Of a DNA stretch of 64,000 nt, positions 48,472-51,097 are shown one piece after another. The DNA lies in NCBI RefSeq assembly GCF_015354315.1, contig NZ_JADKYY010000009.1:1-64000 (forward strand), written 5' to 3'. Every line of letters starts with the position of its first letter. Positions within the stretch are counted from its first letter, which is position 1. The notes below the pieces were generated by a model, which worked only from the letters and a program-made list of their open reading frames with translations, had not been told where the DNA came from and did no database searches. The DNA comes from Planobacterium oryzisoli (GTDB taxonomy: Bacteria; Bacteroidota; Bacteroidia; Flavobacteriales; Weeksellaceae). The translations under genes and the position numbers were made by a program.

Positions 48472-49725
48472 TTAAATACCATTGTTGTACCTTGCAATAA
48501 TATGCTCAACAATTCTCTTTGTGGCCTCAGGCTGGCTTTCAATGAAGGTATGTGCATTTTTTGAAATTTCTTCTCTCTTTTTGGAATCTTTAAGTAGCAT
48601 TTTAATATACGACGCCAATTTTTGCGTGGTCTCAAAACTTTGACCGCCACCTTGCTTAATAAGTGCATCCGCTTCAGGATTTTTAGTGTATTTGTTACCA
48701 AAAAGCGTGGGTATTCCAAAAACAGCTGCCTCAAGAATATTGTGTAATCCCTGTGAGTGGAAACCTCCACCCACTACTGCAATTTGAGCCCCCGCATATA
48801 AAGTTGATAGATATCCAATATTATCAACTACCAAGACTTCGGCCCGCTCTAATTTATCTTTATTTAAATATTTTGCTTGACTAAATAAAAGTGCATTAGG
48901 AAATTTAGCATATATCCTATCAACTCTTCTTAAGTCGTGTGGGGCAATTATAAGTTTGCATGGCGTTTTGGTCTGAAGAAGCATTTCCCCAACTTCTTCT
49001 TCTGCCTCCCAACTGCTCCCAAAAATAATAACGGGTAGCTCGGTTGCGAAGCTAGAAACAAAATCCGGTACTACAGCAACCGAAGCACGCTCGCGTACAC
49101 GATCAAAGCGCGTATCCCCTGCTATGGACGATTGGGATAGACCGATAGTGCGGGCCAGTGCATAGGAGTGCTTATTTTGGTGAAAGAACCACGATACGTT
49201 CTCTTTGAGCTGCTTGCGAAACCAATTACCATAAGGCTTAAAGAATATCTGTCGTTCGTAAAAGTAAGAGGATATAACATAAACAGGAACGCTCTTCTTT
49301 GCAAGTTCAGAAAGGAGATTATACCAAAATTCGTATTTAACACTGATAAATAAGACTGTATTAAAGCAACTGACAAAGTCTTTAATTTCTCTTGTGGTAT
49401 CAAAAGGCAAATAACATACTACATCCGCCAGACGATCTCGTCGCACTACATTATCGTACCCAGAAGGGGAGAAAAAGGTGATAAGAATCTTGTGGTCAGA
49501 AAAAGTTTGCGCTAGTTTTTTTAATACAGGCAAACCCTGTTCATATTCACCCAAACTAGCAGCATGCATCCAAATCACTTTATCTTTAAGTGTAAATGCT
49601 TCCCTCACTTTTACATAACTCTGGCGGCGACCCGCAAGACCACGTTTTAATTTAAACTGAAAAAAAGCACCTAAGCGAAAAAATAATCGCAGTGCTTGAA
49701 TGGCCAGATTATATATAAATTTCAT
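48472..49725 (-). CDS. waaA: 3-deoxy-D-manno-octulosonic acid (Kdo) transferase
   Basis: A 417-residue inner-membrane GT30 enzyme that adds Kdo to lipid IVA. An N-terminal helix anchor (about 1-20) is followed by VIWMHAASLGEYEQGLPVL, the conserved HAASxGE segment with catalytic Glu. Then ISVKYEFWYNLL and AGDTRFDRV, and the C-terminal domain with IFGSSWEAEEEVGE, LIIAPHDLRRV and AVVGGGFHSQGLHNILE. It follows the NlpC/P60-like gene by 13 bases. lpxB elsewhere in the window belongs to the same lipid A pathway. Confidence 0.94.
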   Translation of the reverse strand: MKFIYNLAIQALRLFFRLGAFFQFKLKRGLAGRRQSYVKVREAFTLKDKVIWMHAASLGEYEQGLPVLKKLAQTFSDHKILITFFSPSGYDNVVRRDRLADVVCYLPFDTTREIKDFVSCFNTVLFISVKYEFWYNLLSELAKKSVPVYVISSYFYERQIFFKPYGNWFRKQLKENVSWFFHQNKHSYALARTIGLSQSSIAGDTRFDRVRERASVAVVPDFVSSFATELPVIIFGSSWEAEEEVGEMLLQTKTPCKLIIAPHDLRRVDRIYAKFPNALLFSQAKYLNKDKLERAEVLVVDNIGYLSTLYAGAQIAVVGGGFHSQGLHNILEAAVFGIPTLFGNKYTKNPEADALIKQGGGQSFETTQKLASYIKMLLKDSKKREEISKNAHTFIESQPEATKRIVEHIIARYNNGI

Positions 49726-49738
49726 TTTTTAGGGTGCA

Positions 49739-50437
49739 CTATATTTGTATTGCAAAACGCAATTTGTGCGTATGGCGGCCCATTGCGTCACTAAAAATAC
49801 CCGCATTATCTAATCGGTCTATTTTCACCACTCCATCTACATGCACTATCAATTCAGAACTGATTAAGATGCCTACATGGTTAATCCGGCCGTCGGAGTC
49901 CTCAAAAAAAGCCATATCCCCAGGTTGTGCCTCTGCCAAAAAAGTATAGGGATGTCCTATCATTGCCTGCTGGGGCACATTCCGTGGAATTGATTTTCCA
50001 TGCACTTTGTATACAAGCTGCACAAATGCCGCAGAATCTATTCCAAACGCGCTTCGGCCTCCTGTTAATTCGGGAACCTGCAATAGTTCTTTAGCGGTAT
50101 CCACAATAGTACGTTCCCGACTATCTATAGTTCCAGCGAATGAATTCGTAGAGGGCTCCGACCCCATACTTAGCAGTAAATCCCCATTTGCTGTTTTTAG
50201 CGAAACATATTTATCGTGAATCATCTCCCTGACATGCGGGATTTCAGATTTAACAAGCTGCGAAGACAATACCCACCCTGGGGTTCCGTCAAACAAATGT
50301 GTACCGTAGGCCCAACGACCTTCCAGCTGCTCCACAGCAAATTTTTCTCCATACAGAAGCTGAGTAATGAGCGGCGATTCATCCGTTGGCTCAAGTTTCA
50401 TGGAAGCAACACTTACATTGCAATAACTAGCGTTCAT
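49739..50437 (-). CDS. NlpC/P60-like (C40) protein with SH3-like domain; catalytic Cys replaced by Ser
   Basis: About 232 residues. N-terminal SH3-like folds (about 1-100, SLKTANGDLLL region included) are followed by an NlpC/P60 domain (about 108-230). Active homologues have GIDCSGFxQ with the nucleophilic Cys; here it reads FGIDSAAFVQLVYKVHG, with Ser135 at the nucleophile position. The catalytic His187 (GRINHVGILI) and the third residue His199 (IVHVDGVVK) remain. The codon is plainly TCT. The protein may be a binding module, or use Ser, or be inactive. Start ATG at 50437 rather than the TTG 9 bases upstream. No signal peptide is visible. It sits between the O-methyltransferase and waaA. Confidence 0.85.
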   Translation of the reverse strand: MNASYCNVSVASMKLEPTDESPLITQLLYGEKFAVEQLEGRWAYGTHLFDGTPGWVLSSQLVKSEIPHVREMIHDKYVSLKTANGDLLLSMGSEPSTNSFAGTIDSRERTIVDTAKELLQVPELTGGRSAFGIDSAAFVQLVYKVHGKSIPRNVPQQAMIGHPYTFLAEAQPGDMAFFEDSDGRINHVGILISSELIVHVDGVVKIDRLDNAGIFSDAMGRHTHKLRFAIQI

Positions 50438-50449
50438 CTGGTACAATCT

Positions 50450-51097
50450 CTATTTTCGACGAAGTAAATTTATTCCGTCACGTAATGGTAAAATCACATT
50501 ATCGAAGTGGGAATCTTTGCTAACAGCAGCGTTCAACTCTTGAATTGCCCGGGTGGATTCCAGTTTGGGTTTTTCCTCCAAAACCTTCCCATACCAAAGT
50601 ACATTATCAAACAACAAAACAGAACCTGAATGTGTTAATGGCTTTAGAAGTTGGAAATAATTGAGATAATTCTCTTTGTCCGCATCTATAAAAACCAAAT
50701 CGAATTTTGTCTCAATATTTTGCAAGTAATTCATTGCATTGGTTTTCTTGAACTCGATATGATTACGGTATTCAGATTCATGAAAGTATTTTTCAGCGAT
50801 TAGCGCAGTATCCTCATTTTTATCCAAAGTAGTAATTTTACCAGCAGACGCGAGCCCTTCCGCAAGACATAGTGTAGAATATCCTGTAAAGGTTCCAATT
50901 TCCAAAATACTGGAAGGCGCTAGAATCTTGGAAATAAGAGATAATAGCCTGCCCTGTAAATACCCCGAAATCATGTGGGGCTGCGTTGTCTTCTGATAGG
51001 TTTCCTTCCGAAGTCTCTTTAGTATATCTGGTTCTGCAGAGGCATGCGATTCTAAATACCTGTCCATATCCGGCAATTGCTCTTCAAAAAAACTCAT
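50450..51097 (-). CDS. SAM-dependent O-methyltransferase (caffeoyl-CoA/catechol type fold)
   Basis: A 215-residue class I methyltransferase of the O-methyltransferase-3 family. SAM motifs are SILEIGTFTGYSTLCLAEGL and KFDLVFIDADKENYLNYFQL, with VLLFDNVLWYGKVL contributing metal-binding Asp. The substrate is unknown; in this family it is often a catechol-like or tRNA substrate. The ATG at 51097 is used because the upstream TTG-started extension overlaps a -7 box. It leads the group O-MT, NlpC/P60-like, waaA. Confidence 0.88.
   Translation of the reverse strand: MSFFEEQLPDMDRYLESHASAEPDILKRLRKETYQKTTQPHMISGYLQGRLLSLISKILAPSSILEIGTFTGYSTLCLAEGLASAGKITTLDKNEDTALIAEKYFHESEYRNHIEFKKTNAMNYLQNIETKFDLVFIDADKENYLNYFQLLKPLTHSGSVLLFDNVLWYGKVLEEKPKLESTRAIQELNAAVSKDSHFDNVILPLRDGINLLRRK

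Follow-up and report, generated by a model that had tools for sequence, protein, structure and literature searches.

Peptidases of the YkfC/dipeptidyl peptidase VI (DPP VI) type are murein-peptide endopeptidases acting on γ-D-Glu-mDAP, in which an N-terminal SH3b domain is packed against an NlpC/P60 (C40) domain that carries a Cys-His-His triad. For YkfC, the passages of PMC2954226 on the active site describe Trp228 as lining S2 and S1, γ-D-Glu as held by Tyr226, Asp237, and Ser239, the free L-Ala amine as served by Asp256 and the SH3 residue Tyr118, and an Asp237-Arg255 hydrogen-bond network that links many active-site residues. The chlamydial YkfC (C. trachomatis) is likewise a YkfC-type murein-tripeptide peptidase and is an active enzyme with its Cys, the C172A mutant being inactive according to parts of PMC9928106. 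An NlpC/P60 member that does not cut is RipD (Rv1566c), presented in sections of PMC12067865 as a non-catalytic, peptidoglycan-binding protein whose triad reads Ala83-Ser132-Glu144, the His being lost too. The gene considered here lies in a window of 64,000 nucleotides of Planobacterium oryzisoli (RefSeq assembly GCF_015354315.1, contig NZ_JADKYY010000009.1, positions 1 to 64,000) and encodes a YkfC-type protein without the catalytic Cys; its product is probably a maintained, non-catalytic, cytosolic protein.

The open reading frame (ORF) agrees with the first-pass annotation of this DNA, which had reported the catalytic Cys changed to Ser (Ser135, codon TCT, in GIDSAAF) with His187 and His199 kept, and a whole gene in an operon with waaA. 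In the alignment to the Bacillus cereus YkfC structure (3h41), from which the YkfC numbering is taken, the equivalents of Asp237, Arg255, His291, and His303 are retained, while those of Cys238, Tyr118, Trp228, Ser239, Tyr226, and Asp256 are all replaced; the triad is thus incomplete, and the pair for the free L-Ala amine is absent (Asn153 and Thr52). Relative to the Cys-bearing orthologues, Glu replaces Tyr at position 123, Thr replaces Trp at 125, Ala replaces Ser at 136, and Asn replaces Asp at 153, in addition to the loss of the Cys. Cys6 is the sole Cys of the protein; the catalytic residue was thus not merely moved along the chain, and no displaced Cys is present.

Both domains pass the curated Pfam cut-offs, NLPC_P60 (PF00877) with 46-47 bits (47.4 and 46.3; cut-off 23) and SH3_16 with 42 bits. 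The AlphaFold2 model, with a mean predicted local distance difference test (pLDDT) score of 94.1, predicts a whole, well-folded YkfC-type protein and no fragment, in which the SH3b1 and NlpC/P60 domains would pack as in YkfC. The model matches B. cereus YkfC with Z 24.8 and a root-mean-square deviation of 2.1 over 220 aligned residues and the Bacteroides DPP VI entries (3npf, 3pvq, 4r0k) with Z 24.2-24.4, the YkfC-type matches spanning 220-223 residues; a Cys-bearing orthologue modelled in the same way reaches Z 25.1-25.5 on the same four entries. The protein shares with YkfC/DPP VI the architecture and the fold, but at 232 aa its chain is shorter than those of the YkfC crystal structures (297-305 aa). 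The SH3-like part, described earlier as intact, is present as a fold but has lost its substrate-contact Tyr, the equivalent of YkfC Tyr118. In no orthologue, as judged by eye, is the stretch that precedes the SH3 domain long enough for an export signal, and for this reason the protein is taken, on the basis of its sequence, as cytosolic like B. subtilis YkfC; a peptidoglycan-binding module acting at the wall, one of the roles suggested in the first-pass annotation, is unlikely on the same ground.

The state of position 135 was read in an alignment of 76 orthologues in which Cys-less genera and their relatives had been sought deliberately, so that 20 in 76 is not a prevalence, and from which one duplicate (L056, the same as G244) was removed before counting: Cys is found in 56, Ala in 11, Asp in six, Ser in two, and Gly in one. 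In family f1, taken as Weeksellaceae, where the residue was read in 81 of the 318 matched orthologues (65 in the main alignment and 16 more, all 16 with Cys), the Cys-less state occurs in 12 genera out of 32 sampled. Genus g11 contains both forms, with five Asp and two Cys, and the one genome compared that is congeneric with that of the window (G001) carries Gly. Some Cys-less rows have Cys residues elsewhere, none of them common to all. A further set of 80 named contigs contains four Cys-less orthologues, two of which (G004 and G060) were already counted. The two new ones, L269 from Pseudozobellia sp. WGM2 (Ala) and L287 from the Bacteroidia metagenome-assembled genome (MAG) 6_bin.29 (Gly), come from records named outside Weeksellaceae, and the loss of the Cys, as far as it is read from these sequences, is wider than one family. 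Two observations stand apart from this series: L083 (G327, genus g10) has the opposite lesion, with the catalytic Cys kept and Gln at the His187 position (IQEGI for IHVGI), and a second partial match in G060 (G060:C74:16582-17163), which is outside the 20 Cys-less rows, has an in-frame TAA and may belong to another organism, the MAG being 4% contaminated.

Of 40 neighbourhoods, 38, all those of family f1, have the same O-methyltransferase cluster on the 5' side of the C40 gene, and in two of them (L110 and L119) a small additional ORF is called between the two genes; the two neighbourhoods from other families differ. Since genes with and without the Cys are found at one and the same locus they are orthologues, and the gene of the window is a vertically inherited orthologue of the Weeksellaceae (Flavobacteriales) YkfC/DPP VI murein-peptide endopeptidase; the operon, being inherited, is uninformative about the Ser variant in particular.

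The Cys-less orthologues form about five separate groups. The gene tree needs five changes and rejects a single Cys-less clade (approximately unbiased test, p-AU 0.0017), and the rpoB tree needs six, at least three of which are forced by well-supported branches, and rejects one Cys-less clade with p-AU 1e-6; the position of G006, whose rpoB is partial, differs between the two trees. A smaller number of losses, with Cys regained in some lineages, is conceivable, but this would require the substrate pocket to be regained too. The residues that contact the substrate were lost together with the Cys: conservation in Cys-bearing versus Cys-less orthologues is 98% versus 25% for Tyr52, 100% versus 35% for Trp125, 100% versus 45% for Ser136, 96% versus 25% for Asp153, and 100% versus 50% for Tyr123. 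The L-Ala pocket is also lost in the Cys-less rows with the exception of one recent clade, since the five rows that keep both Tyr52 and Asp153 are exactly the Asp clade of g11, 79% identical to its Cys-bearing sisters; in this genus the Cys was lost first and the erosion of the pocket is yet to follow. In contrast, Asp134, His187, and His199 are present in all 20 Cys-less rows and do not change over the 12.06 substitutions per site of the Cys-less tree, on which Trp125 and Asp153 each undergo 12 changes; the 80 named contigs, the two Cys-less ones outside the family among them, likewise all have both His.

The gene is constrained, though faster-evolving. All 20 Cys-less orthologues aligned have open frames, and the ratio of nonsynonymous to synonymous substitution rates (dN/dS), in the Cys-less pairs in which dS is unsaturated, is 0.12-0.24 (Asp clade of g11) and 0.135 (g24), indicating purifying selection in these measurable clades; it is 0.03-0.12 in Cys-bearing pairs, and the operon neighbours of the same genomes give 0.07-0.20 (O-methyltransferase) and 0.11-0.14 (waaA). 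The gene of the window and that of its congener are 37% identical with no stops, where a neutral simulation gives 19% identity (maximum 26%) and a mean of 10.5 stops. The earlier impression of a gene that is kept and not decaying is thus upheld by the open frames, the dN/dS after the loss, and the conserved synteny.

Markers of murein-peptide recycling were scanned in 46 family-f1 genomes, and the 45 with the C40 gene were tested. An Mpl-like or epimerase-like gene is present in 25 of 25 Cys-bearing genomes; among the 20 Cys-less genomes, nine have neither and 11 have one of the two (Fisher p 2e-4, or 0.003 when genomes less than 90% complete are left out, both values being naive, as they ignore kinship, and exploratory, as they follow the trial of four markers). 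The assignment of the Mpl-like class is tentative, as murC is its best NCBIfam model (254 bits, below cut-off) and mpl the second (162); among the paralogue groups it is the one that scores highest with mpl, and it was checked by clustering in a few genomes and otherwise rests on score and match length. The distribution suggests that a cell can do without the nucleophile when neither route for the murein tripeptide is left; the genome of the window itself has the epimerase-like gene. Across the 46 genomes the two genes are nearly mutually exclusive, as would be expected if each provided its own route for the tripeptide; only G008 has both, and its being counted as Mpl-like leaves the totals unchanged. 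LdcA (PF17676), present in 45/46 genomes, does not separate Cys from non-Cys, AmpG (TIGR00901) is above cut-off in none of the 46, and for the epimerase alone the starred branches yield three independent pairs, which is not enough for a test.

Repeated loss of the Cys among relatives, in a gene that selection still maintains, probably means that the protein now has a job without cutting. In a maintained non-catalytic protein no residual hydrolysis would be expected, in line with the inactivity of chlamydial YkfC once its Cys is changed in C172A (PMC9928106), and the SH3b-NlpC cleft with the Asp-His-His cluster may now bind a ligand or a partner, as a sensor, carrier, or regulator. A bolder form of this reading, in which about five parallel conversions to a pseudo-peptidase put the invariant Asp-His-His and the SH3b cleft at the service of one new shared function, such as sensing or carrying a metabolite of the cell wall or the envelope, with selection for it after the rewiring of the pathway, is held only tentatively and is rather unlikely. 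Several facts weigh against maintenance. The lineage of the window evolves fastest (gene branch 1.93), and dS between the window and its congener is saturated, so dN/dS cannot be given directly for this lineage; the C40 gene is cleanly excised in G016 (L307, G016:C12:751000-760500), where the O-methyltransferase gene and waaA abut, so that it was dispensable in one lineage; G314 has no match to the gene and no clear O-methyltransferase orthologue, which could be an assembly gap. Moreover, Gly127, Gly161, Asp207, and Gly213 are among further columns of the core that are equally invariant, and hence the retention of Asp134 and the His pair may serve the fold only. The excision in G016 would also fit a relaxed constraint on the way to loss, in which the enzyme was freed from selection when the cell no longer needed to recycle the murein tripeptide, and the ORF persists for now; the greater mean distance of the Cys-less orthologues to the outgroup orthologues (0.61 versus 0.54 for Cys; 20 versus 38 genomes) and the exploratory absence of both recycling genes in nine Cys-less and no Cys-bearing genomes point in the same direction. 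This course of events is nevertheless doubtful, as the dN/dS after the loss is like that of waaA and the O-methyltransferase of the same genomes, the frames have stayed open without the stops of the neutral simulation, and 11 of the 20 Cys-less genomes still have an Mpl-like or epimerase-like gene.

That the protein is still an enzyme with another chemistry, in which a Ser or Asp would act as the nucleophile or Asp134-His187-His199 would activate a metal or water, is quite improbable; the invariance of these three residues in the Cys-less rows, the persistence of both His in the two Cys-less orthologues beyond the family, and the second Asp at position 135 in the Asp clade would accord with it, but the substrate anchors are lost, and Ala or Gly at position 135 in 12 of the 20 leaves no shared nucleophile. 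For the same reason the lineage-specific Ser enzyme suggested by the first-pass annotation is excluded as a shared solution, Ser being found in two of the 20 with the pocket lost too. Finally, TGT and TCT differ by one base, and the change might have come from a sequencing error or a chance event in one strain, which the same annotation had named as the finding that would undo its proposal should near relatives have Cys; Gly in the congener, the joint change of several pocket residues, and the absence of the Cys in 20 separate genomes contradict this, which refutes this explanation and makes its probability negligible.

RipD is, as far as the cited sections describe it, a precedent for a maintained dead NlpC/P60 member, and both proteins have NlpC/P60 domains without the catalytic Cys that match in fold (Z 12.1). 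However, RipD binds the cell wall and lacks the His, whereas the P. oryzisoli protein keeps both and looks cytosolic; against the RipD family model (NCBIfam NF033743) it scores 14.3 bits, far from the cut-off of 215. Searches of open-licence PMC papers returned no description of a recurrent dead series of the cytosolic, His-retaining YkfC type. The repeated, independent disappearance of one nucleophile from a syntenic locus, where genus g11 has both intact and dead forms, is a natural experiment on the origin of pseudoenzymes, and annotation as a C40 peptidase or murein-recycling enzyme is wrong for part of the family.

Table 1. Positions in the window of the Cys-less gene, its domains, the residues discussed, and the adjoining genes.
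Feature	Position	Strand	Remarks
Cys-less YkfC/DPP VI-type NlpC/P60 (C40) protein, 232 aa	49739..50437	-	ATG at 50437, stop ends at 49739
N-terminal SH3b domain, residues 1-64	50246..50437	-	PF18348, 42 bits; model strands E2-E63
NlpC/P60 domain, residues 109-232	49742..50113	-	PF00877; VIA-align range 109-232, many rows
Ser135 codon TCT, catalytic Cys position (YkfC Cys238)	50033..50035	-	within GIDSAAF
Asp134, kept (YkfC Asp237)	50036..50038	-	
Ala136 replacing Ser (YkfC Ser239)	50030..50032	-	
Thr125 replacing Trp (YkfC Trp228)	50063..50065	-	
Thr52 replacing SH3 Tyr (YkfC Tyr118)	50282..50284	-	
Asn153 replacing Asp (YkfC Asp256)	49979..49981	-	
His187, kept (YkfC His291)	49877..49879	-	
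His199, kept (YkfC His303)	49841..49843	-	
Upstream operon gene, O-methyltransferase	50450..51097	-	PF01596, 170 bits
Downstream operon gene, waaA (Kdo transferase)	48472..49725	-	

The operon is tight, with gaps of 12 bp to the O-methyltransferase gene and 13 bp to waaA, and a promoter scan gave fewer matches than in shuffles. The host genome, in which the window is G000:C20, is of 2.1 Mb and 99.98% complete, and the search for a Cys-containing paralogue proposed in the first-pass annotation yields two, on G000:C17 and C14; since by eye each of them looks exported, neither is an obvious cytosolic substitute.
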